This document shows positions 1,946 to 24,440 of a DNA stretch of 46,588 nt, in pieces (the first letter of the stretch is position 1; every line of letters starts with the position of its first letter). The stretch is from positions 1-46,588 of IMG/VR virus record IMGVR_UViG_3300009502_000077. One strand, 5' to 3'. The translations under genes were made by a program, and so were the position numbers. Under the pieces are notes generated by a model, which had not been told where the DNA came from, searched no databases, and saw only the letters and a list, made by a program, of their open reading frames with translations. Origin of the DNA: a virus.

Positions 1946-3772
1946 ATGGGAAAAATAATCTATAGTTTCTGTAAAGATGGGGTAAGGATAGACCGACCAC
2001 TTCAGAAGGACATTGAAGTTGGGGATTTGGTTCTGAATAAGTACAACTCTGGCATTGCTGGAAAAGTAATATCCATAGTTGGTGATGCAGTAGAAGTTCA
2101 GAATCCATTTATGGCTAAGACTGATGTCTATTCTATTGATGAGATAGAGTTGGTACAGAAAGGTGAACCAATTGCTACCGATGAACCTGTAATCTCCGAA
2201 GGTGCAATTGTTACACTCAATGGTCATAAAGGTAAAGTCCTATCAATGCTTGGTGGTAAAGCTCAAGTAAGTTGGGAAGATGCTTCTATCTCTGAAGTAG
2301 ATGCTAAAGACCTTGGTTATGATGGAAGAGTGGAAAAAGGCGGTCCAGGTAGTGGTCCAAGACCTGAAGGTGGAAGTGCGGGGGATGAGCATGGATTTAG
2401 TAAGTTAACAACTGAGGAATTAAAAAGTAAACTTAAAACTCACGAGGCAGATGTTGAAAGATTTGGTGGTACTGATTTCACACTCAAATATGGAAGTGCT
2501 TTGATAGATGAGATAAAACGTAGAGAAGGCGGAAGAGTAGAAAAAGGTGGGCCAGGGTCAGGCAGATATCCAGCTGGTTCTGGATATAAAGAAACACAAG
2601 ATGCTGTTAAAGAAAGAATGAAAACGCTTAGCCCTGAGCTTCGAGAAAAGGTTAAGTTAGCAGCTAGAGATATCTATTATAGAAATTTGAACCAGAATGA
2701 AAACTATGCTTCTATAGCTAGAAATTTGAAAATTAAGAATTCAGATATTGATGTTGTTACTGCAATTCTTGGTGTTAGTAGTATGGTAGAAAAAGGTGGT
2801 CCAGGTAGCTCTGGAACAAAAGGTCCTGGTACACGAGGGGGCTCTGGTGAAGGTAAAGAGACTGCTAATTACGACGACACAATTGAATCTAGAGCAAAAG
2901 ATATTGGAATGCCAGCAGACTTATTTGAACGTGCAGTTGAATTAAGGGAAGGTGGAGTGAGTTATAAGGATATAGTTAGTGACCTTACTGAAAGTGACAC
3001 GCAAGGTCGGGAATGGTTTAGTTCTGGTGAGTACCAAGGCAACGAATTTGACCTACGCCAGGATTTGGAAGAAGCAATTCAACCTTCGGACGATAATGAG
3101 ATAGCAATTGTTCGTAGGTATAGTGAAGATAAGAATGTAGTCAAAATGCTTAAAGGTGGCCCTGGAAGTGGTAGACACAAAGAAGGTGATAGTGTAGAAG
3201 TATCTGGAAGAAAAATTAAGTTGGGACCTTTTGATGGAGAAAGATTCCATTCTACGATAGTAGATGGTTCTGCTCCAGGTGGAAAAGTTTATTTAAGTCA
3301 TGATGAAATAAAGAGTGGGCAGAAGGCTGGATTTGGTAATACACCTTATGCTAACAAAATGTCTAAAGGTGGTGCTGGTTCTGGTAGGTTCTCAGAAGAA
3401 GTAAAAGCCAGTAATGTAAAGTTAGGTGTAGCCCGCCACTTACGTAGACAGGGTGTACTAGCCAGGATAAGGAAATTAAGAAAAGGGGGACCTGGCAGTG
3501 GAAGGAAGCCTGAGGGTGGGCAGAAATGGGGTCCAAATGGTGAGAGACCAGAAGGCACAAGCCCTAAGGGGCAAGTTGCTAATGAAATAGCAAGACAGCA
3601 AGGCAGAGCTAAACAAGATAAGGTTCTTTTTGACATGGGACATACAAGGGGATTTCAGCATGGAAGAGATGGGATACCTTATCGAAAGCCCAAAGAACTT
3701 GCTGCTGACCACCCAACTGCTCAGGGTTACTTCACAGGTTTTAAAGCAGGGCAAGCAGAGAGGAATAAATAA
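1946..3772 (+). CDS. Modular virion protein with six KGGPGSGR-type motifs
   Basis: This 608-residue protein starts with two KOW/SH3-like beta segments (about residues 24-60 and 83-125, each with a GKV turn). After that it is divided into modules by a repeated motif. Copies begin near residues 131, 200, 283, 403, 474 and 513; the consensus is (E/S/R)KGGPGSGR followed by a polar xPxG tail, with one copy reading GGAGSGR and one GGPGSSG. Intervening modules of ~40-120 residues differ in sequence: one is helical and basic, one resembles a small helix-turn-helix, and the last carries GHTRGFQHGRDG. The same motif occurs once in the MuF protein at 6993. I know the motif from other phage head-associated proteins, but its function is not established to my knowledge. 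An internal capsid protein processed or anchored through the motif is inference. Confidence 0.7.
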   Translation: MGKIIYSFCKDGVRIDRPLQKDIEVGDLVLNKYNSGIAGKVISIVGDAVEVQNPFMAKTDVYSIDEIELVQKGEPIATDEPVISEGAIVTLNGHKGKVLSMLGGKAQVSWEDASISEVDAKDLGYDGRVEKGGPGSGPRPEGGSAGDEHGFSKLTTEELKSKLKTHEADVERFGGTDFTLKYGSALIDEIKRREGGRVEKGGPGSGRYPAGSGYKETQDAVKERMKTLSPELREKVKLAARDIYYRNLNQNENYASIARNLKIKNSDIDVVTAILGVSSMVEKGGPGSSGTKGPGTRGGSGEGKETANYDDTIESRAKDIGMPADLFERAVELREGGVSYKDIVSDLTESDTQGREWFSSGEYQGNEFDLRQDLEEAIQPSDDNEIAIVRRYSEDKNVVKMLKGGPGSGRHKEGDSVEVSGRKIKLGPFDGERFHSTIVDGSAPGGKVYLSHDEIKSGQKAGFGNTPYANKMSKGGAGSGRFSEEVKASNVKLGVARHLRRQGVLARIRKLRKGGPGSGRKPEGGQKWGPNGERPEGTSPKGQVANEIARQQGRAKQDKVLFDMGHTRGFQHGRDGIPYRKPKELAADHPTAQGYFTGFKAGQAERNK

Positions 3773-6639: not shown

Positions 6640-6993
6640 ATGGGCGAAAAATTCTTACTTCAAGGCGGTAACAAAACAAAAATGACCCAAATGAAAATTC
6701 CTATGGGCAAGTATAATATGCTTGGCGAAGCTCAAGGTGTACAAGTAGCCGAAGTCAAAAACATAGGCAACTCCATGGGCATAGATTGGAATACTGTTAC
6801 ACTTGAAGAGCTGTACAAAGGTGTCAAAGAAGAGATGGAAGAGCATGGAGACATTCTCGGTAATGATGTAACTAAAGGTGTGCAAGTAGCATATGCTCAT
6901 CTCAAAAAGATTCCTGACTACTATACAAGATTAGCTAGAATGGAAGCAGAGGCAACTGTACCTAATACGGACGACAACATACAAAATTCTTAA
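6640..6993 (+). CDS. DUF5661-like small protein
   Basis: The 117-residue protein contains an IDWNTVTLEELYKGVKEE block followed by E.HG, a TKG..A..HL segment and a DYYTRL.RMEAEA end. I recognise this arrangement from the DUF5661 family, small proteins frequent in phages and phage-like gene clusters, whose role is unknown. It begins directly after the portal stop codon and ends in a TAATG overlap with the MuF gene, so translational coupling is likely. The N-terminal ~40 residues are polar and unrelated to the family core. I infer a head-associated function from position only. Confidence 0.7.
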   Translation: MGEKFLLQGGNKTKMTQMKIPMGKYNMLGEAQGVQVAEVKNIGNSMGIDWNTVTLEELYKGVKEEMEEHGDILGNDVTKGVQVAYAHLKKIPDYYTRLARMEAEATVPNTDDNIQNS

Positions 6994-9383
6994 TGAACAG
7001 AATAACGTTTGATAAACCAAAATCTATAGACCTAGTAAAAGAAGAATATGACATTACTAAAGTGTCAGTTCTAACTACACCTAACTTGTTTCCTTTAATT
7101 AAAGGGATAGAGTTTGATGGTAGTGCTTCTTTTATCCTAGCTAAGAAGCAACCATTTCCTGTAAAGAGAAAAATGGATGCTCATATAGAGGCTTATCAAA
7201 ACGCGATGTTAAGAGAATGGAAAACAGTTAAAGGCAAATTAAAATCTCTTATCAATAGAGTAAAACAAGTAAGCAAAGTAGACTACAACAACAAGCTTAC
7301 AGTTTTTCGTATAGCTAAGATACCTACAAAATACAAACTACAATTTATAGCAGTAGCAGACAAGTACGATTTGAATTTAGCTATACTCGATGCAATAGTG
7401 TTGAATCCTTCTCTTATGGTTAATGCTAGATACGACAATGAGCACAACCTATTAGAACTTAATCCTGACTATCTTGCGCAACATGGTATGATTAGAATTG
7501 GTGATGTAGAGATTAGTGAGACTGAGAAGACATTCATACATGAATTTGCCCATGCTTTCTGGTATAATTCACTAGCTGAAGAAGAAAGAATGCGATGGAG
7601 TAGCTTAGCTACATTTTTAGAGCGTGACCAGCTTACTGGTGATATGAGTCAATACTTAGTAGGAGAGAAAAAGAGATTTGATGGTTCAACAACATACTCA
7701 GAATACTATACAGTAAGAGATGAACCATTTGTAAGTGTCTATGCAAGGTTCAATACTCGAGAAGACTTTGCTGAATGCTTCTTATATTATAAGGTATCGC
7801 CTAAAACATTAGAGCAGATTAATCCTAACAAATATGCTTTCATTCAAGATAAAGTGGGTAATACAATTGAAAAAGAAAATCTTACTAAAGCATTCGAACC
7901 AGATATAGAAGACCCAAAGAAGTTAAGAGATAAGATTATTGCATACTTGGATAGTTTAAAAAATGATTTGAGTGAGGTAGCTAAAGATGCAATCATTACA
8001 GCTTTCTTATTAGGTAAACAAAAAGCTGCTCACTATACTGGTGAGCCATACAATCCTAAACTTACAACTGCTGAAGAGGAAGAAGTACAAAGATTATTAA
8101 CACAAAATGACGAATTTTTAGACGATTTTATGGATACATTATCTGAAGAGCATGATAATGTTTTGTTTACTCTAACACCTACTGGATTCGTGGAGGGCGT
8201 CAAAGAGTATGATGATATAGATACATTTGACCAAGAGTTTGACGGGGTAATGGATAATCAAGAATACAGATTGGGTTCCTATGCCACAAATGGTGTAGAG
8301 AATGCTATGGCAATAGGTATGATTGGTAGTCTATTAGGTGCTTTTGCTGGTGGTTATTGGCATACAGAACAAGACGACAAGGTATGCGATGAATGTGGTC
8401 CTTTAGACGGGCAATGGATGTCATTAGATGAGTTTTCTGCATTGTGTTTAGACATAGATGGCATTCATCCTAACTGTAGATGCAAAAGACTATTCGAACC
8501 TGCTTTGGCACCTGGTGATGAATTTGAAAGAATAGTAGCAAGTGGTACTTTAGAAAAGAGGAAGAAAAAAATATGCGCAGTTGATTATCATAACACTATT
8601 CAGTACCTTTATCAGATAGATAATTCAGTAAACATTAGGATAAAAGAAAAATTAGAGCAGTTGAAGAAACAAAAGTATCAGATTGTAATCCATTTTGGTG
8701 GCGTTAGGCATAGTGGTAAGGCTCTTGGCAGAATCATTGCTTGGCTTAAACAAAATGAAATTCCTTACGATGAAATTTGGATGCGGAACGACAAACCTAA
8801 AGCTGATTTGTATTTTGAAAATGTGATGACAAGACCAAGTGAATTCGAAGGTGTAGAAAAAGGCGGTCCTGGTAGTGGAAGATACCCAGCTGGAAGTAGT
8901 ACTAAGCTTTCATATCAAGAGCAGCAAGATTACGATAAGTTATCTGAATCATCAAAAATGGACTATATGGACCATAGAAGAGCAGGAACTGACCATCAAG
9001 CTTCGTTGGCGTTAGCCGAACCCGATAAGGCTTATGTAAAGAAGTCAGATAAAACAGTTGCAGTTGACTATCATGGTACTATAATGATTAATAACAAAGT
9101 CAACGAAACCATAAAAGCTAAATTGCAGGAGATGAGAAATGAAGGTTATCACATTATTGTTTATACTTCAGGTACTACTAATAGTCCTGGTGCCTATAAT
9201 GGCATACAGACTTGGCTTAAACAGAACGAAATCCCTTTTGATGAAGTCTGGCAAAAACAAGGGAAGCCAGATGCCGATTTGTATTTTGAAGATAAAGCTG
9301 TTAGACCGAGTGAAATCGAAGGTAAAACACTTAAGGAAATAGAAGCTATTCCTGATATAGAAGATAAATTAATGGAGGGTTAA
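6993..9383 (+). CDS. Multidomain MuF protein: HExxH peptidase-like, MuF and two HAD-like domains
   Basis: This 796-residue protein has several units. Residues ~100-265 hold a gluzincin-like zinc peptidase signature, HEFAH at 183-187 with a downstream EDFAE (257-261) able to supply the third ligand. Residues ~330-500 form a MuF (SPP1 gp7-type) domain ending in CDEC (465-468) and HPNCRC (492-497). Two HAD-like domains follow at ~525-620 and ~685-780, separated by a KGGPGSGR motif at 623-630. The second has motif I as DYHGT (D692, with His where Asp is usual), VYTSG for motif II (T725) and DLYFEDKA for motif IV. The first reads DYHNT, has HFGG at motif II and ends FEN, so it looks degenerate. 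MuF proteins sit near the portal inside the head and can carry effector domains; delivery into the host is inference. Confidence 0.8.
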   Translation: MNRITFDKPKSIDLVKEEYDITKVSVLTTPNLFPLIKGIEFDGSASFILAKKQPFPVKRKMDAHIEAYQNAMLREWKTVKGKLKSLINRVKQVSKVDYNNKLTVFRIAKIPTKYKLQFIAVADKYDLNLAILDAIVLNPSLMVNARYDNEHNLLELNPDYLAQHGMIRIGDVEISETEKTFIHEFAHAFWYNSLAEEERMRWSSLATFLERDQLTGDMSQYLVGEKKRFDGSTTYSEYYTVRDEPFVSVYARFNTREDFAECFLYYKVSPKTLEQINPNKYAFIQDKVGNTIEKENLTKAFEPDIEDPKKLRDKIIAYLDSLKNDLSEVAKDAIITAFLLGKQKAAHYTGEPYNPKLTTAEEEEVQRLLTQNDEFLDDFMDTLSEEHDNVLFTLTPTGFVEGVKEYDDIDTFDQEFDGVMDNQEYRLGSYATNGVENAMAIGMIGSLLGAFAGGYWHTEQDDKVCDECGPLDGQWMSLDEFSALCLDIDGIHPNCRCKRLFEPALAPGDEFERIVASGTLEKRKKKICAVDYHNTIQYLYQIDNSVNIRIKEKLEQLKKQKYQIVIHFGGVRHSGKALGRIIAWLKQNEIPYDEIWMRNDKPKADLYFENVMTRPSEFEGVEKGGPGSGRYPAGSSTKLSYQEQQDYDKLSESSKMDYMDHRRAGTDHQASLALAEPDKAYVKKSDKTVAVDYHGTIMINNKVNETIKAKLQEMRNEGYHIIVYTSGTTNSPGAYNGIQTWLKQNEIPFDEVWQKQGKPDADLYFEDKAVRPSEIEGKTLKEIEAIPDIEDKLMEG

Positions 9384-9384
9384 A

Positions 9385-10098
9385 ATGACAGCATTACCTA
9401 ATGATGTAAAGAGAGTTATAGCCAACGGTGATTTGAATCGATTGGCGGAAGATATTAACGATGGTTTATTACCTGAACCTACAGACCATCAACAAAATAC
9501 AGACACTAAACTCTTAGCTACTTCTGGAGTTAGTGGATATGTTTACACCAACAATGGTGTAAGTGGCAATTGGGCACCTTCATCCACACTACTCGGAACT
9601 TCTGGGTACAGTGGACTTAGTGGTGCTTCTGGATACAGTGGATTAAGTGGACAAGATGGTGCTAGTGGTTATAGCGGCCTAGATGGTGCTAGTGGTTATA
9701 GTGGGGAAATCGGGACATCAGGTGAAAGTGGATACTCTGGTCAGGATGGTGCATCAGGAGAATCTGGTTATTCAGGTGAATCTGGAGCAAGTGGTTATAG
9801 TGGAGCTAATCCTGGTGAGAGTGGCTATTCTGGAGAATCAGGTGCCAGTGGTTTTTCTGGTGAATCTGGTGCTAGTGGTTTTTCTGGACCTGTTGGAGAT
9901 TCTGGATATAGTGGAATCAATGGGGATAGCGGTTATTCTGGTGAATCTGGTGCAAGTGGTGCGTCAGGTTTCAGCGGTGAGTCTGGGTATAGTGGGTTGA
10001 ATGGTACACCTACTGGATATAGTGGAACAATTTTAGTTGGCACAGATACAGTCTATGTAGTTGATGGTTTGATTACAGCAGTATCGGGAGTAGTATAA
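9385..10098 (+). CDS. Collagen-like (Gly-X-Ser) fibre protein, probable head fibre
   Basis: This 237-residue protein has a ~70-residue N-terminal part, then about 140 residues (~72-213) of Gly-X-Ser triplets such as GYSGESGASGYSG with about 15 GYSG/GFSG units, occasionally broken by GQDG, GPVG or GANPG. It closes with a short beta segment (TVYVVDGLITAVSGV) typical of phage fibre C-termini. Gly at every third residue is the hallmark of a collagen triple helix, so a trimeric rod is expected. Synonymous codons vary widely between units (TAC/TAT, AGT/TCT/TCA/AGC), so the DNA is less repetitive than the protein. Its place between the MuF and protease genes suggests a head-attached fibre. Confidence 0.8.
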   Translation: MTALPNDVKRVIANGDLNRLAEDINDGLLPEPTDHQQNTDTKLLATSGVSGYVYTNNGVSGNWAPSSTLLGTSGYSGLSGASGYSGLSGQDGASGYSGLDGASGYSGEIGTSGESGYSGQDGASGESGYSGESGASGYSGANPGESGYSGESGASGFSGESGASGFSGPVGDSGYSGINGDSGYSGESGASGASGFSGESGYSGLNGTPTGYSGTILVGTDTVYVVDGLITAVSGVV

Positions 10099-12070: not shown

Positions 12071-13799
12071 ATGTTTTTTAATCCGCAAGCAATTGATAAG
12101 GCAATCGGCGATATTCAAAAAGCGATTGGCAGCATTGATGTTGACGGCTTACTGTTAGTCCGTGAGGACTTACAAGCTGAGTTAGCCATTATGGCCCCGA
12201 CTGATACACCGATTAGAAATCGGTTAAACAGGATTCAGGGAAATGGTAAAGCTCATGCGTGGTATCAGTTAGTCCCGACATCTGCCACGGAAGGATTGTT
12301 CTTAGGAACAGCCCCTTCGAATGCGTTTTTTGAGAGAGGTGGATTGCCCAATGCTACCCAAGCGTCGTATAAGTACAAATCAGCTCCGTATGTGTCTTTA
12401 GGTGACATGATTGTTGTGTCATTCTTTGACCAGATGGCTGGTGCAACTTATGCCGATGTTAAAAAACTGCAGACAAAGATTAAGATGGTATCCGAAAGTT
12501 TGCCATCTCTAAAACCCACTATATCGGTGGAAGCCCGTGAGGGTAATACCGAGGCAACCTGCGAAAGCAGAGAGTCCGTAGAGACTACACGTGGGATACG
12601 ATGGAATTAGGAGATTTAAATGTTAAAAGGTTCTAAAATGACAGAAGAGGCTAAAAAGAAAATATCCGATAAGATGAAAGCTGTTCGGTTGGTTTCTAAT
12701 CCTTGGAAGTCAGGACAAACCTATGAAGAACGATTTGGTATTGAAAAAGGTTCTATGCTAAGAGAGAAAAGAGCACAAGTAATGAAGGAAAGACCTAACC
12801 TTAAGGTTCCAGAGAAAGCTTGGAATAAGGGGTTAACAGGTGTCCAAGTTGCTTGGAATAAAGGTAAATCTCTTTCTCAAGAGCATAGAATATCTTTATC
12901 AAAAGCCAAAGGTGGTAAGGGTGAGCCAGGATATGGATGGGATTGGGAAGTAATGAGATTACTGGCTTTAGAAAGAGATGGACATAAATGCCAAAGGTGT
13001 GGTAAAGAAGCACCGCAGGTTAGAGTTATAGTCCATCATAAAGACCCTTATAAGATTGGTAAATCTAATTCGTTAGATATACTGATTACTCTTTGTAGGA
13101 GTTGCCATATGATAGTGGAACCTTTTTATCTCTATCGTAAAGATATAGTCCGAACTGCACAAATAACTGAAAGTGCAGAGCAAGACAGAAATTGTTCTTG
13201 CACCAAGTAACATACTTGGGTTAACAGATTGAAACACCGCCTTAATTGAGGAATGGGCCATTATTAATGGTAATAGTGGAACATCACCGCTACAGTTCGA
13301 TGGGTTGTTAACGCAGATTAGTACCAACACAGAAACAGCAAGCGCAGCTCCATTCACATTGACACAGATTACAAATCTGTTGAAGACAATCACAATGAAA
13401 GGTGGAAAACCGCAGGCAATAATTATGTCGTATCGTGATAATCAGAGATTTTCTGATTTAGTCATGGGTTCTTACTACAGATTATTCCAGGCTGGTGCTG
13501 GTGCTATGGCTGACGTCCCCGCTGGTATCGCAGTAACTAAATGGGTTAGCCCGTTTGGTACTCAAGATATTATCGGAAGTCGGTATCTGCCTAACACTGG
13601 TGTGGATGGTAATATCATTGTCATTGATGACAAGACAGTACTTGATGATGGTAATGCAATCCAAATGGTTGACTTAATGCCTATCAGCTCTATCGATTTG
13701 GCCTTACTTCAAACAGCGTATCGTACAATCATTTGTGAGTTCTCAGTTCTACAGATGACATGCGAAGCGTTCCAGGGCAAAGTTACTAACTGCGGTTAA
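12071..13799 (+). CDS. Major capsid protein, intron-interrupted (join 12071-12510, 13232-13799)
   Basis: Two partial frames, 12071-12510 and 13232-13799, join in phase to a 335-residue protein; the junction codon CTA gives PSL|NTALIEEWAI. Unspliced, the upstream frame runs into intron sequence and stops at residue 179, and the downstream half lacks a start. The joined product has the size and feel of an HK97-fold capsid protein: a helical N-terminal arm, an extended E-loop-like region (~residues 50-110), and a C-terminal P/A-domain portion including GKPQAIIMSYRD. It sits after the protease/scaffold gene, where the capsid gene is expected. Ribosome binding sequence GGAAAGGAGG precedes the ATG. 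The exact splice points are inferred from protein continuity and group I rules (U before the intron, G at its end). Confidence 0.85.
12511..13231 (+). mobile_element. Group I intron with HNH endonuclease gene
   Basis: The 721-base insertion splits the capsid gene. The 5' part holds core-like sequence GGTAATACCGAGGCAACC (12542-12559) and GACTACACG (12583-12591). The 3' part holds GATATAGTCC (13142-13151), whose UAGUC complements GACUA, as in the P7 pairing of group I introns. A perfect CTGCAC/GTGCAG hairpin follows (from ~13154), and the element ends TTAACAGATTG. Predicted exon 1 ends in T and the intron ends in G, as group I splicing requires. The HNH gene occupies the middle and its 3' end overlaps the catalytic-core sequence. 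The subgroup cannot be assigned without folding. Confidence 0.85.
12620..13210 (+). CDS. Intron-encoded HNH homing endonuclease
   Basis: The 196-residue protein starts at an ATG seven bases after AGGAG. The N-terminal half contains repeated DNA-binding (NUMOD3-like) elements with KAWNKGLTG and AWNKGKSLS, common in phage homing endonucleases. The C-terminal half has a zinc-stabilised HNH nuclease: C124/C127 (CQRC), HH at 139-140, N150 and C159/C162-H163 (CRSCH). Such enzymes cut intronless alleles to spread the intron. The last ~25 residues are encoded by DNA that also forms the intron P7 strand and following hairpins, so coding and ribozyme constraints coincide. The gene lies fully inside the capsid intron. 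Confidence 0.9.
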   Translation: MLKGSKMTEEAKKKISDKMKAVRLVSNPWKSGQTYEERFGIEKGSMLREKRAQVMKERPNLKVPEKAWNKGLTGVQVAWNKGKSLSQEHRISLSKAKGGKGEPGYGWDWEVMRLLALERDGHKCQRCGKEAPQVRVIVHHKDPYKIGKSNSLDILITLCRSCHMIVEPFYLYRKDIVRTAQITESAEQDRNCSCTK

Positions 13800-13839: not shown

Positions 13840-13863
13840 GTGGGTGGATTGACCACCACCCAC
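13840..13863 (+). terminator. Stem-loop after capsid gene
   Basis: GTGGGTGG (13840-13847) pairs perfectly with CCACCCAC (13856-13863) around an eight-base loop, 40 bases after the capsid stop and 30 bases before the next start. No long T run follows, so it may act as a leaky terminator or as a 3' stabiliser of abundant capsid mRNA rather than a full stop. Confidence 0.5.
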
Positions 13864-13893
13864 CACTTAAATTTCTTAACAAGGGAGATACAG

Positions 13894-14442
13894 ATGCCAA
13901 CAGGAGTTTACAGAAGAACAAATCCAGCTTGGAACAAGGGGTTAACAAAAGAAACAAGTTCTATTGTTGCTTCTATGGCTATTTCTCAGTCAGAAAGTAA
14001 GAAGATTAATTGGAGAGACCCTTCTTATCGTGGTAAAGTTGCTACTCAAGAGAGACGTGATGCTATTTCTGATGCGATTTTAGAGAAACATAAGGATTTA
14101 GAATTTTCAGCTAGGTGGCATAAAGGGATTATTGATAAAGCAAAAGTGTATAATGGCAGTAAGCATCATTGCTGGCAAGGTGGTAAGTCTTATGAAATTT
14201 ATCCTCTTGGATGGAATAAGACCTACAAAGAGCAAATCCGTAGGCGTGATGAGTATAAGTGTCAAGTATGCGGTAAACCAGAAGTAGAGAATGGTAGGAA
14301 ATTACACGTCCATCACGTTGATTATGATAAATGTAATTTAGACCCTAGTAATTTAATGTCTTGTTGCACAAGTTGTCACGCTAAGACTAATTTTAATAAA
14401 GAGAAATGGATAGAATTTTTTAAAGAGAAAGTGAGGGTTTAA
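13894..14442 (+). CDS. Free-standing HNH endonuclease
   Basis: The ATG at 13894 is preferred because AAGGGAG lies upstream; a longer frame from 13840 would begin inside the stem-loop. The 182-residue protein has an N-terminal NPAWNKGLTKE element like that of the intron enzyme and a C-terminal HNH domain: C123/C126 (CQVC), H138-H140-H141 (HVHHVD), N153 and CTSCH at 158-162. It is a probable homing endonuclease placed directly after the intron-bearing capsid gene and four bases before the cold-shock gene. Its target is unknown. Free-standing enzymes near introns can promote inheritance of their neighbourhood. Confidence 0.88.
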   Translation: MPTGVYRRTNPAWNKGLTKETSSIVASMAISQSESKKINWRDPSYRGKVATQERRDAISDAILEKHKDLEFSARWHKGIIDKAKVYNGSKHHCWQGGKSYEIYPLGWNKTYKEQIRRRDEYKCQVCGKPEVENGRKLHVHHVDYDKCNLDPSNLMSCCTSCHAKTNFNKEKWIEFFKEKVRV

Positions 14443-15351: not shown

Positions 15352-16083
15352 ATGAAGTTGCATTCGATAGAGTTAGCAAATGGGTGTAATCTAAAATGTG
15401 ATTACTGCCCAAACAAAAGTAAGGTTAGATATCCAAAAGGGATATTGAAACTTGAACATTTTCTAAAAGCTATGGAAGTAGTAGAAAAAGACAGCATCAA
15501 TAATTGTATAGGATTATCAGTATGTGGAGAACCATTACTGCATCCGCAAGCTTGTGAATATACTAAGATAGCTAGAAAGTATGTTCGTAAAGTGGAGATG
15601 CATACGAATGGAACGTTACTTACTGCTGACTTATTCAAAAAGTTAATTGATAGTGGTCTTACGAAGTTGGAAGTAAGTATCCATACTGAAAAAAGTTATG
15701 GTGGATTCAAAAGAGCTTATGACATTAATGAAGGAATGGGTAAACCGATGGAGGTCCTAGGGCAAGTGCTATCTTGTAATGAGCATAAAGTACTAGGATG
15801 GGCTTCTAAGGATAAACATTATCCATTGCTTGTACATGCAACTCATAATTGGAATTGGGACAAGCCACATAAATCTATTAGTTGTAGATTTATAAATGAG
15901 CGGATGGCTTGTATGAAATGGGATGGAAAGATAGTGGCGTGCTGTTTTGATTTTAACGGTGACGCTGTGATAGGGCATATAGATAACTTTGCAAAGATAG
16001 AACACGAGACAGAATACAGACTTTGCCGTACTTGCTCGCCAAGTTGGGCAACTTACCAGAACGATTCGTGGAGGTGGAGATGA
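15352..16083 (+). CDS. Radical SAM protein with SPASM-like cysteine cluster
   Basis: The 243-residue protein has the radical SAM signature CxxxCxxC at C12, C16 and C19, a CGEPLLHP segment (58-65) matching the conserved GGEPLLHP region, and HTNGTLL (84-90). Its C-terminal part has cysteines at 178, 187, 197, 198, 225 and 228, arranged like a SPASM/twitch auxiliary iron-sulfur region with MKWDGKIVACC. Such enzymes often modify peptides or carry out sugar chemistry. The size is short for a full SPASM protein. It overlaps the following glycosyltransferase gene by four bases (ATGA), so the two are probably translationally coupled. The substrate is unknown; a virion protein or a sugar donor are both possible. 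Confidence 0.85.
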   Translation: MKLHSIELANGCNLKCDYCPNKSKVRYPKGILKLEHFLKAMEVVEKDSINNCIGLSVCGEPLLHPQACEYTKIARKYVRKVEMHTNGTLLTADLFKKLIDSGLTKLEVSIHTEKSYGGFKRAYDINEGMGKPMEVLGQVLSCNEHKVLGWASKDKHYPLLVHATHNWNWDKPHKSISCRFINERMACMKWDGKIVACCFDFNGDAVIGHIDNFAKIEHETEYRLCRTCSPSWATYQNDSWRWR

Positions 16084-18305
16084 GATATTCAATCGTAATA
16101 CCAACCTGTAATGATGTAAATGTTATCAAGCCCTTGATAGATAGCATAATGAAGTACACTGATTTGAAAGATGTTGAAGTGATTATAGCTGCTAATGGCA
16201 GTCCAAAATCTTTAATCAAGTATGTTAGAGGTTTGGGTGAACCATTTAAGTTACTTTTTGAAAAGAATAAAATAGGCGTAGCTTCAGCTTTTACTATGGG
16301 TTGTAAAGAAGCCAAAGGTGAGTTTGTTATTTTAATGAATGACGATTCAGTTTTGCTTGAGCAACAGACTAATCAATGGCTTAATCTTTTGTTAACGCCA
16401 ATGATTGCAGATGAGAAGGTAGGTATAACTGGAAAGCTTCATAAAGATTGGAGTTCTAATCAGGAGTTTATAATCTCTTTTTGCACAGCAATCAGACATA
16501 AAGTGTTTGAAGAGATAGGATACTTTGACCCTATATTCAATCCTTACTTTGGTGAGGATGTTGATTTATGTATTAGAGCTAAGGTAGCAGGTTGGAAGAT
16601 AGCAAATGTAGCTAATATGCCACTCTATCATAAATCGCATACTGAAGGAAATCCCACACCAAAGAATGCTCAAGTTATCTCACAGAAGAGTAACATACTC
16701 AGGGAGAGATATAATGAAAGTTCTTTTGGAAATTGTCAATCTATTTGGGACGTATCCAAAGCTATCAATCATTATAATAGTGATGAGTTGGCTGATGCTC
16801 TTTTGGGTTATATTCCGAAAGAGGATTTAGTCATTGACTTAGGATGCGGTAATGGCTATTACTGTAATTTCTTGGAAAAGAAGGGCTATACAGTAATAGC
16901 TGTAGAAGGCACTAAAGATATGAATAAGGTGTCTATTTACCACCCAATATTCAGGTGGAACCTTTCAAAAGATTTAGTGCTACCTAATCTGCCAGAGAAT
17001 ACTACTGTTATGTCCTTAGAGGTAGCGGAACATATTGACCCAGCATTTGAAAATGTGTTTATGAATAATATTACAAAACATGCGACAAGAGTGATAATGT
17101 CTTGGGCAGTTCCAGGTCAAGGTGGTGATGGGCATATCAATGAAAGACCCAATCACTATGTAATAAATAGGATGAAGGAACGAGGGTTTTTACTTGATAA
17201 AAAAGCTACTGACGATTTCAGAACAGCTGTTGTAAATAGTAAACTCTGGTGGTTTAAGAATACTTTAATGGTTTTTGAAAAGGTGAGTGTAACGGTAGTA
17301 ATCCCCACAAGAAATAGATACTTCACCACACTACCACAATGCATATTATCAGTTGCTAATCAAACTTTCAAACCAGAAAAAATTCTGATTTATGATGATG
17401 GTGAACAAAAAGACTTGAGGCAAGAGCCGATGTATAAGAACATCTTTTCTCTACTCGCTGCTAAAGAAATTCAATGGGCAGTAAATTTTGGAGTAAGAAA
17501 AGGTCAAGCTTACAGCCATCAGAAATCGATTGAAGATGCAAAGACAACTTGGATATGGAGAATTGATGATGATAATATTGCTGAAGCACATGCTTTAGAG
17601 AGAATGGTAAGCAATATTGATTCTGATGTAGGTGCTATAGGTGGATTAGTTATAGACCCTAAATCAAATGGGTGGAGACCTACTTTAGCTTCTAATAAAA
17701 TAGAAGACATTTATCTTGGGCAGAATATTCAATGGTATCGTCAAGATAAGCATGTTGAGGAAGTAGACCATTTGTATAGTACATTTATATTTAGGAAGGC
17801 AGCTGCAAAAGAAGGCTATGATTTACGAGCCCCTATCCACAGAGAAGAAACAATCTTCACTTATCGTATTAAGAGGCAGGGTTGGCGTGTATTAGTAGAC
17901 ACTTCTGCTTTGACTTGGCACTTTAATGAGCAGACTGGTGGTATTAGAGATGATAAGAGAGAAAAGATAATGGAATGTGAAAGAGTCTTCTCTGAGAATA
18001 TGAAAGAGTGGGGAGTTACTGCCAGCCAGTATAAGTTCATAGTTCTGGATAATGGTTTAGGTGACCACCTAGTCTTCAAAAAGATACTACCAGAGATTAA
18101 AGCTAGGAATAAAGGTAAGAAGATAATTATAGCTGCTTGCTATAATGAAGTCTTTGAAGATGATAGAGATGTAAAGCTTATAAGTATAGGAGAAGCAAAA
18201 GGATTGTTCGGAAAGAACTACGATACCTTCAATACGTATAAGTGGATGTGGGACCACAATTGGAATAAACCATTAGAAGAAGCTTTTGCTGAACAATATA
18301 GATAA
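16080..18305 (+). CDS. GT2-methyltransferase-GT2 fusion with GT9-like N-half
   Basis: The start at 16080 follows GGAGGTGGAG and overlaps the radical SAM stop codon. The 741-residue protein joins four units. Residues 1-~215 are a family 2 glycosyltransferase (SIVIPTCND start, MNDDS at 86-90). Residues ~220-400 are a class I SAM methyltransferase (IDLGCGNGYY at 252-261). Residues ~402-630 are a second GT2 (VTVVIPTRNRY, IDDDN at 495-499). The last ~105 residues (FIVLDNGLGDHL...) resemble the N-terminal half of GT9 heptosyltransferases. The C-terminal GT9 half is the next gene. This looks like a cassette that builds and methylates a glycan on a protein or surface polymer; acceptor and sugars are unknown. 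Confidence 0.88.
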   Translation: MRYSIVIPTCNDVNVIKPLIDSIMKYTDLKDVEVIIAANGSPKSLIKYVRGLGEPFKLLFEKNKIGVASAFTMGCKEAKGEFVILMNDDSVLLEQQTNQWLNLLLTPMIADEKVGITGKLHKDWSSNQEFIISFCTAIRHKVFEEIGYFDPIFNPYFGEDVDLCIRAKVAGWKIANVANMPLYHKSHTEGNPTPKNAQVISQKSNILRERYNESSFGNCQSIWDVSKAINHYNSDELADALLGYIPKEDLVIDLGCGNGYYCNFLEKKGYTVIAVEGTKDMNKVSIYHPIFRWNLSKDLVLPNLPENTTVMSLEVAEHIDPAFENVFMNNITKHATRVIMSWAVPGQGGDGHINERPNHYVINRMKERGFLLDKKATDDFRTAVVNSKLWWFKNTLMVFEKVSVTVVIPTRNRYFTTLPQCILSVANQTFKPEKILIYDDGEQKDLRQEPMYKNIFSLLAAKEIQWAVNFGVRKGQAYSHQKSIEDAKTTWIWRIDDDNIAEAHALERMVSNIDSDVGAIGGLVIDPKSNGWRPTLASNKIEDIYLGQNIQWYRQDKHVEEVDHLYSTFIFRKAAAKEGYDLRAPIHREETIFTYRIKRQGWRVLVDTSALTWHFNEQTGGIRDDKREKIMECERVFSENMKEWGVTASQYKFIVLDNGLGDHLVFKKILPEIKARNKGKKIIIAACYNEVFEDDRDVKLISIGEAKGLFGKNYDTFNTYKWMWDHNWNKPLEEAFAEQYR

Positions 18306-18320
18306 AGAGGAGAGATAAAG

Positions 18321-18779
18321 ATGAAGACAATTATAGTTAGCCCGTTCTCAAGAAAAATGCGTAGTGGTGTAACAAATAATCCTAAAGATTATCCAAAGTG
18401 GGTAGAGGTAATCAAAGGATTAAAGGAAGAAGGATATAAGGTAATTCAAGTAGGTGTAGTTGGGGAAGAATTACTAGGAGCAGATGAAGTAAGGTTTAAT
18501 CTGCCACTAAAAGATTTATCCCAATTGATTAAAGAAAGTCACACTTGGATATCAATTGATAACTTCTTTCAGCATTTAGCTTATTTAATAGGTAAGAAGG
18601 GTGTAGTAATATTTGGGCAATCAGACCCAAACATATTTGGGCATAAACAAAATATAAATCTGCTCAAGGATAGAAAGTATTTAAGAGAAAGACAGTTTCA
18701 AAACTGGGAAGCAGCAACATATAGGGCAGATGTATTTGTAGAACCAGTTGATATTATCAACATAGTTAAAAGAATTTAA
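18321..18779 (+). CDS. GT9-like glycosyltransferase C-terminal half
   Basis: The 152-residue protein begins TIIVSPFSRKMRSG and contains YPKWVEVIKGLKEEGYKV, VGVVGEE, a DLSQLIKES helix, SIDNFFQHLAYLIGKKGVVIFG and DVFVEPVDIINIVKR. This order matches the nucleotide-sugar-binding C-terminal Rossmann half of GT9 heptosyltransferase-like enzymes. The N-terminal half is missing here but present at the end of the preceding protein, so the two probably form one functional GT9 unit. The gene has its own AGAGGAGAGATAAAG ribosome binding site. It may derive from a split of a larger fusion. It lies directly before a collagen-like fibre gene, a candidate acceptor. Confidence 0.78.
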   Translation: MKTIIVSPFSRKMRSGVTNNPKDYPKWVEVIKGLKEEGYKVIQVGVVGEELLGADEVRFNLPLKDLSQLIKESHTWISIDNFFQHLAYLIGKKGVVIFGQSDPNIFGHKQNINLLKDRKYLRERQFQNWEAATYRADVFVEPVDIINIVKRI

Positions 18780-18793
18780 TAAGGAGGTAAGAG

Positions 18794-20122
18794 ATGGCAA
18801 TTCAAAGGTATGCTGGTGATAGGATAACGTGTTTATCCACGCCAGATGTAAAACCGTTGAATGTAGCCGATGGTGCATTCCTTGTAGAAACCGATACTGG
18901 AAAACTATTCCAAAAAGTAGGCGGTGCGTGGGAGCAGATTGAGGGCTACAGCGGAGCATCAGGTTATTCTGGTTTCTCTGGTATTAGCGGTTACTCAGGC
19001 GCTAGTGGAATAAGTGGATATTCAGGCGCTAGTGGCATAAGCGGATATTCAGGAGAAAGTGGAGAATCAGGTTATTCGGGAGAGAGTGGATATAGTGGTG
19101 CTTCAGCAGCTAGCGGATACTCAGGTGCTAGTGGCGAATCTGGATATTCAGGAGAATCAGGCGAAAGTGGGTATAGTGGAGTAAGTGGTGAGTCTGGATA
19201 TTCAGGAGAAGCTGGTCCTGTAGGTCCTACTGGTGGTATCTCAATGCCGTATAATTATAATGATACGACATCAGCTCCACCTGCAACTGGTACTGTTCGT
19301 CTGAACCATGCTACACTTGCTTCTGCAACTGTGTTATGGGCTAACGATACTGATTCTGGTTCTGTCAATGTCCAAATATTGTTAGACGACATATTACCTG
19401 GAGACCACGTTAGAATTCAGAAAGTAGGTGCACTAACTAATTATGCTTACTATCACGTAGATTCAAATGTTGATAGTGGGGCATATCATACTATTGGTGT
19501 TACCTATGTAAGCGGTAGCGGTTCATTAACTACTGGTGATGCAATAGAGATGGTAGCTTCGCAAAGAGGTCCCGAAGGTGTAAGTGGATATTCAGGCGAA
19601 TCTGGAATTTCTGGGTATAGTGGTGCATCAGGTGCTAGTGGAATAAGTGGCTATAGCGGAGCTTCAGGTATAAGCGGTTTCTCTGGTGCATCAGGTACTT
19701 CAGGGTTTAGTGGTGCCAGTGGGGAATCAGGTTATAGTGGCGAATCGGGAGCATCTGGTTATTCAGGAGAAAGTGGTACCTCTGGTTACAGCGGTGCTAG
19801 TGGCGAGTCTGGGTATAGCGGTGCGTCTGGTACTTCTGGATACTCTGGTATGTCTGGTGCTGGTGTTCAGTACTGGGACAGAGGGGATGCTGTAGGATAC
19901 AGTGGGGCAGCTAAAAGAATGACTCCTACAAACACAGGAGATTTAGTTGACCTAGACGTTTCACCTTTACAGCAGGCGGTTCAGACAGCTCCAGGAACAC
20001 CCGCAGCAGACGCAATGAGAATGTATGTAGTCGCTACTGGAACAACTCCGAATAGGATTGTTAAGTGGTGTATTAAAGATGAAACTGGTAATGAAATAGT
20101 GGTAACAAGCGTTGTAGTATAA
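18794..20122 (+). CDS. Collagen-like (Gly-X-Ser) tail or surface fibre
   Basis: This 442-residue protein has TAAGGAGG before its ATG. Residues 1-50 form an adaptor (IQRYAGDR..., DGAFLVETDTGKLFQ) shared with the next fibre gene. Two collagen-like stretches, ~51-146 and ~258-355, consist of GYSG/GASG/GESG/GISG triplets, about twenty GYSG or GFSG units in total. They flank a ~110-residue beta-rich domain (~147-257) in which DIMxxGDxV-type segments (DDILPGDHVRIQKVG) are visible. The ~85-residue C-terminal head resembles phage fibre tips. Ser or Tyr in nearly every triplet offers abundant O-glycosylation sites, and two glycosyltransferase genes lie immediately upstream. Synonymous codons are again scrambled. 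Confidence 0.82.
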   Translation: MAIQRYAGDRITCLSTPDVKPLNVADGAFLVETDTGKLFQKVGGAWEQIEGYSGASGYSGFSGISGYSGASGISGYSGASGISGYSGESGESGYSGESGYSGASAASGYSGASGESGYSGESGESGYSGVSGESGYSGEAGPVGPTGGISMPYNYNDTTSAPPATGTVRLNHATLASATVLWANDTDSGSVNVQILLDDILPGDHVRIQKVGALTNYAYYHVDSNVDSGAYHTIGVTYVSGSGSLTTGDAIEMVASQRGPEGVSGYSGESGISGYSGASGASGISGYSGASGISGFSGASGTSGFSGASGESGYSGESGASGYSGESGTSGYSGASGESGYSGASGTSGYSGMSGAGVQYWDRGDAVGYSGAAKRMTPTNTGDLVDLDVSPLQQAVQTAPGTPAADAMRMYVVATGTTPNRIVKWCIKDETGNEIVVTSVVV

Positions 20123-20216: not shown

Positions 20217-21770
20217 ATGTCAATCCAATACTTTGTAGGAAACAAATTAGTAGGTCTTTCAAGTGATAGTAAGCCGACGACTCTTATAGATGGTGCTACT
20301 TTCTATGAAATAGATACAGGAAACAGTTATGTCCTGTCTAGTAGTATCTGGATTCCGATTGGTATGGCTAGGGATGGTTCAGTTAATCCTGTTAATATTA
20401 CATTTAATGGTAGCTTTGAAGATTGGTCTAATGGTCCTACTGACCCTCCTGATTATTGGTTTTTCTATACTAATAAGGCTTCTGGTGCTGTAGCCAGAGA
20501 CGGAGGAGTATTTAGGTTCGGTTCATACTCAACCAAATTAACCCTAGGAGAAGATGGGGATTGCCTAATTGCTATTAACTATGAAACTGATATAGCTTAT
20601 TGGCAAGGTAGGAAGATGACATTTGGTTGTTGGGTCTGGTGTGATGTGGCAGACTCTGCTGTATTAGGTATTTACGACCAAGTATCAGGGTCTGAATCTT
20701 CAAGACATACTGGCAGTGGAACCTGGGAATGGCTATCATTTACTTATACTGTAAATGTAGCAGCTACTAGATTAGATTTCTACTGCAACATTTATAAGAC
20801 TGGCTCTGCTTATTTTGATGGAGCTATGATAGTTGAAGGAGGAAGTCAATTTGCTTTCTCTGAAAGACCTATGTATCAAGCAGATATTGATACAGCTGTT
20901 GGCAATAAGGTTCTAGGCGATGGTTCAGTTAATCCTACTAATTTAGTGCTTAATGGTGACTTTGAAAATTGGTCTGCTGGAACATCAGTTGCACCTGATT
21001 CTTGGAGTTTGTTTGCTAATGACCCTCCAGGCAGTGTTGCTAAAAATATTTCTGTAGTTAAGATAGGGACTTCTTCAGTAGCTGTAACTTCTGCTGGAGT
21101 TCATACTGCTTTGGGACAGGGGATTTCTGCTGAAAAAGGCACCGCTTACTGGCAAGGAAGAACACTAACTTTTAGTTGTTGGGTATGGTGTAATGCTCCT
21201 GGTGTAGCTGGATTGATGCTTAATGATGATACCACAGATTTCTGGTCAACTAAACACACAGGGGATTCTACTTGGCAATTATTAACAGTAACTGGTGCTA
21301 TGGGACCTGCTGCTACAGGAGTACAAGTACAATTAGCGGTAGGGGAAGGTGCAATTGCTTATTTTGATGGTGCAATGCTAGTGGAAGGTGCATCTACTTT
21401 TGCATTTGCAGATAAGCCAGCATCCGAAGCAACCGTAGTTGATTACTTTGCAACTTCTACTATAGTTGGATGGGCAGCAAGCCCGACTGGAAATATCTAC
21501 ATTAAGAAAATAGGGGATATTGTTTTTGTTAATTATTACATAACTGGTACAAGTAATGCAGCCACAACTTCATTTACTGTTCCATATACGATAAGTGGAA
21601 ATGCTTATAATGGTTCATTAAATACAACTGCAGGAGGGGGTATCGGTATTTGTATTGCTGGTAATGGAACAAGTATCATCAGTTTTCCTGGACCAGCTTG
21701 GGGAGATACTACTTGGGCAGATACAGGAACTAAAATAGTACAAGGACAGATTTTCTTTAAAGTTGTATAA
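20217..21770 (+). CDS. Fibre protein with two carbohydrate-binding-like repeats
   Basis: The 517-residue protein begins with the same ~45-residue adaptor as the preceding fibre (IQYFVGNKLVGLSSDSKP, DGATFYEIDTGNSY). Two homologous domains follow at ~58-220 and ~230-410, each starting with FNGSFEDWS or LNGDFENWS, with a central YWQGR.(M/L)TF.CWVWC block and ending AYFDGAM(I/L)VEG. This layout matches CBM 4/9-like jelly-roll domains, which bind glycans. The last ~105 residues form a separate beta-rich tip (VGWAASPTGNIYIKKIGDIVFVNYY). A receptor-binding fibre is the likely role. Confidence 0.78.
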   Translation: MSIQYFVGNKLVGLSSDSKPTTLIDGATFYEIDTGNSYVLSSSIWIPIGMARDGSVNPVNITFNGSFEDWSNGPTDPPDYWFFYTNKASGAVARDGGVFRFGSYSTKLTLGEDGDCLIAINYETDIAYWQGRKMTFGCWVWCDVADSAVLGIYDQVSGSESSRHTGSGTWEWLSFTYTVNVAATRLDFYCNIYKTGSAYFDGAMIVEGGSQFAFSERPMYQADIDTAVGNKVLGDGSVNPTNLVLNGDFENWSAGTSVAPDSWSLFANDPPGSVAKNISVVKIGTSSVAVTSAGVHTALGQGISAEKGTAYWQGRTLTFSCWVWCNAPGVAGLMLNDDTTDFWSTKHTGDSTWQLLTVTGAMGPAATGVQVQLAVGEGAIAYFDGAMLVEGASTFAFADKPASEATVVDYFATSTIVGWAASPTGNIYIKKIGDIVFVNYYITGTSNAATTSFTVPYTISGNAYNGSLNTTAGGGIGICIAGNGTSIISFPGPAWGDTTWADTGTKIVQGQIFFKVV

Positions 21771-21782
21771 GGAGATTAAGTT

Positions 21783-22220
21783 ATGTTAGAATTAATTAAT
21801 GCCGTTAGTAAGAGGTTAGATTCAGTCCAGGAGCTATTGTCTCTTGGCGAAATTACTAGGTTGTCTAACACAACTTTGAAATCAAAAGATGCTATTCTAA
21901 CTACTATCTTTGATAAAGATGACTGTCTTGCTGGTCACGCTATCTATGAAAAGATAGGTGATTCTACTCCATTCCATAGGCACGAAGGTGTTACGCAATA
22001 TCTCTTGCAGTACAAGGGCAAGATTGCAGTTGATTTTGAGAATGGTTCTTATCGGGTCGTTGATGTTGGTGGCTGTGTAAAGTTAGAACCAGGTGAGTTA
22101 CATAGAGTTACTGGATTAACTGAAGGTGCCGAGCAATTATTCATCTGTATACCCGCAGAGAAAGGGTACAAAATTGATAAAAACCAGCTATTGAATGAAC
22201 AAACGGAAATAAAACTATGA
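21783..22220 (+). CDS. Cupin-fold protein
   Basis: The 145-residue protein carries a single cupin barrel. Motif 1 reads PFHRHEGVTQYLLQYKGKI (H65, H67, with E68 nearby) and motif 2 reads VKLEPGELHRVTG (H107). The His pair and the later His are the usual metal ligands. Cupins include sugar epimerases, isomerases, dioxygenases and non-catalytic binders, and the sequence does not decide between them. Position next to fibre and glycosyltransferase genes suggests sugar-nucleotide chemistry or ligand binding, by inference. Its end overlaps the next gene by four bases. Confidence 0.8.
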   Translation: MLELINAVSKRLDSVQELLSLGEITRLSNTTLKSKDAILTTIFDKDDCLAGHAIYEKIGDSTPFHRHEGVTQYLLQYKGKIAVDFENGSYRVVDVGGCVKLEPGELHRVTGLTEGAEQLFICIPAEKGYKIDKNQLLNEQTEIKL

Positions 22221-23312: not shown

Positions 23313-24440
23313 ATGCAACAGTTTACCGTTGGTTCAACAGCAACTTTTTATTGTACATTTGCGAGATTAGATGGAAGTGCTGTAGACCCAGTAACGCCTA
23401 CAGTTGAAGTATGGCTGAGTGATTCTTTGATAGTATCGGCTGTGCCAATGGTAAAGATATCTGTAGGTTACTACTACGCTACATGGACTGTGCCAGGTGC
23501 CCAGCCTACTGGAACTTATTCTGCTCTTTATAAAGGTACAATTGATGGAATAGTTTGTCAAGCCTCAGAAGATTTTGAATTAACTGTTGCTGGTGGTGGG
23601 GTAATGCCCATCTCAGGTTACTATTGTACATGGGATGATGTGAAGGCTTGTCTATTAGGTTTAGATATAGGTGACATACCAGATACTTTACAGACTAGGA
23701 TGACTTCATTTTACATACCTACTTTGAAAAGGGAGATTGACCAATATTGTAGACAGAACTTTGACAAAACGACTATAACAGAATTTTATAATGGTTCAAC
23801 TACAGAAGTAATTGCTGGCTTAAGAAGGCCTATTAAAAATCTTTTCTATTGTGTACTCAGAGTTATACCTTCAATTTCTTGGTATACTTTTAGAAGATGG
23901 CGTAATATTAATGTAATTGAATCTACAGGAGTAACTGTAGCCTATCAAGGTGGACCTGAACCTGATGATGAAACGATACAACCACCGTATCCAGATTTAG
24001 ATGGATATTCAGGAACAAGTGGATTTAGTGGTGTTGGTTATACGTGGGAAAGTGATATTACTAAAGCAGATTTATTTGTAGATTGTTCAAATGGAATTTT
24101 AACTATACCTCCAAGAATACTTTATTTGGAGATGCAAGCAATTCCTTTTTGGAACTATACATTCTTAAGAGGCAACAACAATGTAGAAATTCAATATGAG
24201 TATGGTTATGAAGATAATAACTTTCCTAATGACCTACGCTTAGCTGCTGCAAAATTAGTAGCGTGCCAAGTACTTTTAATCAAGAGCATCATTCAATCAG
24301 GTGGCGGTACTAATTCAATAGCAATAGATGGAGTATCGAGAAGCTTTGGTGGAGGAACTCCTTATTCTGCTTTGATTACTGATTTTAGAACACAGGCTTA
24401 TGCAACTTTAGATAGGTATAGAAGGATAAAGGTAAGCTAA
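23313..24440 (+). CDS. Head-tail connector with N-terminal Ig-like domain and GYSG insert
   Basis: The 375-residue protein has two parts. Residues 1-~95 form an Ig-like beta domain (GSTATFYCTF, GTYSALYKGTI). From ~100 on, YYCTWDDVKACLLGLDI, a helix with MTSFYIPTLKREIDQYCRQNF and the later RLAAAKLVACQVL helix match the usual pattern of phage head completion/connector proteins (gp6/YqbG-like). A short collagen-like piece (GYSGTSGFSG, ~residues 230-239) is inserted in the connector part. The gene starts after AAGGAG and is coupled to the next gene through TAATG. Fusion of an Ig-like domain to a connector is unusual. Confidence 0.7.
   Translation: MQQFTVGSTATFYCTFARLDGSAVDPVTPTVEVWLSDSLIVSAVPMVKISVGYYYATWTVPGAQPTGTYSALYKGTIDGIVCQASEDFELTVAGGGVMPISGYYCTWDDVKACLLGLDIGDIPDTLQTRMTSFYIPTLKREIDQYCRQNFDKTTITEFYNGSTTEVIAGLRRPIKNLFYCVLRVIPSISWYTFRRWRNINVIESTGVTVAYQGGPEPDDETIQPPYPDLDGYSGTSGFSGVGYTWESDITKADLFVDCSNGILTIPPRILYLEMQAIPFWNYTFLRGNNNVEIQYEYGYEDNNFPNDLRLAAAKLVACQVLLIKSIIQSGGGTNSIAIDGVSRSFGGGTPYSALITDFRTQAYATLDRYRRIKVS

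Follow-up and report, generated by a model that had tools for sequence, protein, structure and literature searches.

A recurrent phage gene module that probably glycosylates the phage's own collagen-like fibres

Which molecule does a phage modify when its glycosyltransferase genes stand directly before the gene of a collagen-like fibre? We addressed this question for the window, the whole 46,588-base stretch of DNA analysed here, which is an IMG/VR phage record. Environmental phage glycosyltransferases are usually read as modifiers of the host surface or of DNA, whereas the module described below suggests a specific target, the phage's own fibre. A sequence-only reading had proposed that this fibre is decorated with a methylated glycan, perhaps with help from a radical SAM enzyme and a cupin. 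The enzyme set occurs together with a fibre carrying Gly-Tyr-Ser-Gly (GYSG) repeats in one cultured phage and in dozens that are uncultured, which suggests self-decoration of the fibre with a short, often methylated glycan.

Gene layout of the window

Almost all genes of the window are structural and lie on the plus strand. They include those for the portal, for head morphogenesis and for the prohead protease, a major capsid gene in two parts, connectors and a large central ORF; Pfam PF03906 was uninformative on this record. The genes of interest here are placed downstream of the capsid gene, on the same strand. A radical SAM enzyme with a SPASM/twitch-like C-terminus (15352..16083; PF04055, 6.5e-15) is followed by a 741-aa GT2-methyltransferase-GT2-GT9N fusion (16080..18305; PF00535, 1.7e-31), by GT9C, the C-terminal half of a split GT9-like (heptosyltransferase-type) enzyme (18321..18779; PF01075, 1e-4), and by the proposed glycan acceptor, a collagen-like fibre of Gly-X-Ser triplets with 22 G[YF]SG units (18794..20122; Collagen, 5e-29). 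The sequence-only reading had placed these four genes correctly in both content and position, and its "about twenty" Gly-Tyr/Phe-Ser-Gly units agree with the 22 counted as G[YFW][ST]G.

Two other plus-strand products are possible further acceptors: a second Gly-X-Ser collagen-like fibre with 15 G[YF]SG units (9385..10098), whose N-terminus is related to that of locus L019, and a head-tail connector-like protein (23313..24440) with a GYSGTSGFSG insert of two units, as if repeat units had moved into other virion proteins. Between the main fibre and the cupin lies a fibre-like protein with CBM_4_9 carbohydrate-binding domains (20217..21770, plus strand; PF02018, 1.1e-7). Immediately before the second fibre lies a gene (6993-9383) whose product joins a head morphogenesis protein of SPP1 gp7/Mu F-like type to two domains resembling HAD phosphatases. 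This fusion is kept in L019 at 52%, and its HAD part matched the capsule biosynthesis phosphatase model TIGR01689 at 5.7e-13, below cut-off. Repeated GGPGSGR-type motifs were found in the same protein and in a 608-aa ORF at 1946-3772.

The major capsid gene is in two parts (12071-12502 and 13233-13796) separated by an insert of ~730 bases that contains an HNH endonuclease ORF (12620-13210); the gene is whole in L017-L019. The insert looks like a mobile intron, and its Rfam group I match was far under the gathering score. Another HNH endonuclease ORF (13840-14442) lies directly 3' of the capsid gene.

The fusion enzyme and the split GT9-like enzyme

The start codon of the fusion, ATG 16080, overlaps the stop codon of the radical SAM gene (ATGA). 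Its domains are GT2a (residues 1-205), a methyltransferase (~206-398), GT2b (~400-640) and GT9N (~655-741). PF00535 matched in two stretches, residues 4-118 and ~404-619, the methyltransferase match covered ~234-342, and a GT9-like GxGDH motif lies within ~655-741. In an AlphaFold2 model (pLDDT 80.6) the fold resembled two-domain polysaccharide synthases, with tandem GT-A folds as in chondroitin/heparosan synthases, at low whole-chain TM-scores. No membrane-helix candidate was found in the cassette enzymes.

GT9C is a separate ORF, 15 bases past the fusion, and the scores behind its family assignment are weak (E 1e-4 to 6e-4). At 22.2 bits against a cut-off of 22 its PF01075 match lay only just above threshold, for the C-terminal half only, and its match to the NCBIfam heptosyltransferase I model (5.5e-5) was under that model's cut-off. 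A profile search returned WaaC (2h1f) at 6e-4 and TibC at E 2. With this C-half alone as query, GT9C was not a member of TIGR04414 (autotransporter heptosyltransferase, BAHT; 16.2 bits vs a cut-off of 200).

A sequencing error as the cause of the GT9 split was rejected: the same split is found in L002, L003, the cultured phage P19250A and many others, and because it is conserved in relatives it is evidently real. In four phages the halves are fused in one chain. In L096, L099 and L287 one chain comprises GT2b-GT9N-GT9C, and L457, a contig binned as Nitrospirae, encodes GT2a-GT2b-GT9N-GT9C in one 765-aa protein, with a 121-unit GYSG ORF 16 bp further on. These fusions suggest that GT9N and GT9C are one split enzyme whose halves would work together. 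The AlphaFold2 model of the L099 protein was confident (pLDDT 87.9, pTM 0.79; the P19250A rows were left out of the structure alignment). All 50 PDB fold matches listed for it were GT-A enzymes, the best being polypeptide GalNAc-transferases and TarP; this points to a likeness in the predicted GT2-domain fold and does not demonstrate that GT2b acts on peptide.

Close relatives and a cultured phage

Three viral contigs matched the fusion over most of its length (L001, 100%; L002, 85%; L003, 71%). All three keep the order fusion, GT9C, GYSG fibre; in L003 a further gene separates GT9C from the fusion. In a phage collection, Methylophilaceae phage P19250A was the only record with GT2b-GT9N or GT9C. 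Its genome contains, contiguously, a GYSG ORF (~1200 aa, ~80 units) and then genes for a methyltransferase, GT2b-GT9N and a GT9C that is 47% identical to that of the window. The presence of the module in a cultured phage makes the question of its target open to testing. P19250A_0023 (L016 7750-11355; KX815270) bears a tape-measure annotation that is probably wrong, since by its sequence the product is a GYSG protein of collagen-like type with ~80 units.

Linkage of the cassette to GYSG repeats

Profile scans of viral contigs revealed at least 480 GT9C relatives and at least 451 GT2b-GT9N relatives; 151 cassette loci, drawn from the best 80 of each, were examined. Among these best-scoring relatives, a GYSG ORF was nearby in 60 of the 77 loci with at least 3 kb of upstream sequence. 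Where a GYSG ORF was present (84 loci), it lay upstream in 67 and downstream in 17, with a median gap of 39 bp and 50 gaps within 100 bp. The other 17 of the 77 cassettes (22%) had no GYSG ORF in the flank examined. Cassettes of this kind, several of which occur in large phages next to LamG-like fibres or further glycan genes, may have another fibre or the host surface as acceptor. The sequence-only reading had held that homologous cassettes without any GYSG gene would refute it; this is borne out in part, by the 17 that show none in the flank examined beside the 60 that have one.

The linkage was also examined in reverse. The strict GYSGxSGYSG DNA pattern occurred twice in the window vs 0 expected (100 shuffles). 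Records found only by this pattern, with Ser codons restricted to TCN, were searched whole for GT9C. Among the 49 such records with a length of at least 15 kb, GT9C was present in 24, every time at E<=2.7e-46. The control set, also 49 records with that minimum length, came from a composition-blind search for Gly at every third position, and its fibres are mostly of other types; it gave 0/49 strong GT9C matches and 2 weak ones (~1e-12). In random records found by an arbitrary 15-mer, GT9C was present in 0 of 42, 19 of which are at least 15 kb. Fisher P for the comparison of pattern and control records was 2.8e-9 for strong matches only and 4e-7 if the weak matches were counted; these values are optimistic and the counts non-independent, because the loci share ancestry and some represent nearly the same phage more than once. 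Half of the GYSG phages had no GT9C, and 8 of these 25 had another GT2 over cut-off.

The N-terminal regions of 54 cassette-linked fibres fell into 17 clusters without detectable similarity to one another. Thus, the enzymes follow the repeat, not one fibre lineage. The cassette was nearly absent from bacteria, with 5 contigs matched in 84,980 species genomes vs more than 450 viral relatives, and 2 of these 5 carry GYSG ORFs beside the enzymes. The cassette also shows a linkage of glycosyltransferase genes to structural genes, one of the features expected of a phage virion glycosylation system.

Conserved co-occurrence with GYSG repeats, the check put forward with the original proposal, was strong in both directions and extended to a cultured phage. 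The methyltransferase that had been noted within the glycosyltransferase cassette likewise recurs in relatives, fused or adjacent, and FkbM-type methyltransferases are part of the GT2a proteins of L027, L033, L035 and L162. These findings indicate, at the level of gene content, that GT2a, the methyltransferase, GT2b-GT9N and GT9C form with the GYSG fibre the core of a recurrent, widespread phage module.

The radical SAM enzyme and the cupin

The radical SAM enzyme matched PF04055 above cut-off and SPASM at 0.0028 (18.3 vs a cut-off of 21.5). Its nearest PDB entries were 8wm2 (2e-8) and BtrN (4m7s, 6e-8), an aminocyclitol enzyme. Radical SAM domains were present in 7 of 50 cassette records, adjoining the cassette only in L001, which is near-identical to the window; L003 has the remaining cassette but no radical SAM gene at that place. 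The cupin-like protein (21783..22220, plus strand; Cupin_2 0.001, below cut-off) was shared only by L001 and L002 among the relatives, and we found no supporting evidence for a role in glycosylation. On conservation, both were rejected as core parts of the system, so the part tentatively assigned to them by the sequence-only reading is not supported for the module; they appear to be lineage-specific additions outside it. As a guess, they may still act in the window's own lineage, where the radical SAM gene overlaps the fusion and its product is close to BtrN in sequence.

The fibre repeat as proposed acceptor

The repeats are Gly-X-Ser collagen triplets with Gly at every third residue (PF01391, 5.1e-29), and the two window fibres together contain 111 of them. 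Across 12,843 triplets in cassette loci, Ser occupied 85% of Y positions. After an aromatic X it occupied 98.8% and Thr 0.4%; because G[YFW][ST]G was the selection criterion for the triplet segments, the total of Ser or Thr is raised, but not Ser over Thr. GYSG phages without GT9C had the same preference (Ser 97.4% after aromatics). The serines must therefore have another reason for conservation, and Ser conservation was rejected as proof of glycosylation. Tyr is less likely as the modified residue, because Phe and Trp occupy the same slot. TibC is a GT-B enzyme that has been likened to WaaC, and its target is Ser rather than Thr (PMC4358343). Ser is favoured as the candidate site because of its predominance after aromatics, the Ser specificity of TibC and the resemblance of GT9C to WaaC and, weakly, to TibC.

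Discussion

We consider a phage-specific protein O-glycosylation module acting on the phage's own collagen-like fibres to be the best explanation of the gene content, and a likely one. The two GT2 domains, together with the GT9-like enzyme formed by GT9N of the fusion and GT9C, would assemble a glycan of roughly three sugars at Ser in the Y position of the Gly-X-Ser triplets. This would take place late in infection in the cytosol of the host, while the fibre assembles or earlier, with host nucleotide sugars as donors. The fused methyltransferase would probably cap or modify a sugar; methylation seems optional, because the fused chain of L457 has no methyltransferase. The modification would probably stabilise the triple helix, protect against proteases or alter the surface properties. 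A bolder version, possible but doubtful, is a widespread phage-only O-glycosylation of Gly-X-Ser fibres in which a methylated oligosaccharide on many serines replaces hydroxyproline as triple-helix stabiliser.

Self-glycosylation of the fibre is favoured by the GYSG linkage, by P19250A, by the 17 N-terminal clusters, by L457, by the near restriction to viruses and by the position of the cassette, which in the window, L017 and L019 comes after the major capsid gene. It is weakened by the 17 cassettes without a GYSG ORF, some in phages with other glycan genes, by the half of GYSG phages without GT9C, by the weak GT9C family scores and by kinship among the loci.

The same cassettes without a visible GYSG gene, some of them amid other glycan genes, would fit enzymes that modify the host surface (LPS/O-antigen) and block superinfection, with the nearby fibres reflecting a shared host-interaction region. 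This is the usual reading of aquatic phage glycosyltransferases (PMC7029224), and GT9 enzymes are classically LPS heptosyltransferases. We nevertheless regard it as unlikely here, since the tight adjacency is to a repeat and not to fibres in general and the cassette is almost absent from bacterial genomes. In addition, 0 of 50 cassette records, many of them fragments, had a Polysacc_synt_3 flippase, for which controls gave matches, or GtrA, the mark of an O-antigen conversion Gtr cassette, which was matched in seven control genomes. These absences, together with the lack of membrane-helix candidates in the enzymes, instead favour cytosolic O-glycosylation of the fibre.

Another virion protein, such as the adjacent capsid, could be the acceptor, with the GYSG fibre merely a frequent neighbour. 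Glycans on major capsid proteins are reported for mycobacteriophages (PMC11256854), in three loci the major capsid gene precedes the cassette, and some cassettes have no GYSG ORF. We judge this improbable, because in P19250A the cassette adjoins the GYSG ORF and any annotated capsid gene is far away, and because the recurrent neighbour, on either side, is the GYSG ORF. Glycosylation of modified bases in phage DNA, a role proposed for phage glycosyltransferases (PMC10202952), has in its favour a weak TAGT match of the fusion (E 0.0034). It is very improbable given the link to a fibre repeat and the position in the structural region; the absence of a Tet/JBP match over cut-off in 50 cassette records adds little, as no control matched either.

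If fibre self-glycosylation is true, the module would be a compact viral collagen-glycosylation toolkit, and G-aromatic-Ser-G repeats would be a sequence mark of fibres that probably carry glycans. Searches of the literature for the cassette gene set or for GYSG repeats turned up no relevant report, although one may still exist.

The module has partial counterparts among known systems. TibC and Aah, acting on TibA and AIDA-I, resemble the cassette in that a WaaC-like GT-B transferase modifies serines of a surface protein; however, TibC is a single dodecameric enzyme, whereas the GT9-like enzyme of the cassette occurs in two pieces or is joined to GT2 domains and methyltransferases, its proposed acceptor resembles collagen, and the Aah/TibC model matched only at E 0.0038. 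BclA of Bacillus spores resembles the proposed acceptor as a glycosylated prokaryotic collagen-like surface protein (PMC8968730), but it is a cellular spore protein, likened here by description. In mycobacteriophage Che8 and relatives, phage-encoded glycosyltransferases are proposed to modify the virion; the glycans reported there are on capsid proteins, and the likeness is by description (PMC11256854). Mimivirus hydroxylates and glycosylates its own collagen (PMC8968730), and its protein R699 was among the fold matches (TM 0.21/0.34); the mimivirus enzyme is a bifunctional lysyl hydroxylase/glycosyltransferase of an amoeba virus, whereas the window cassette has no visible hydroxylase. Phage virion glycosylation and viral collagen glycosylation are both already known kinds of system.
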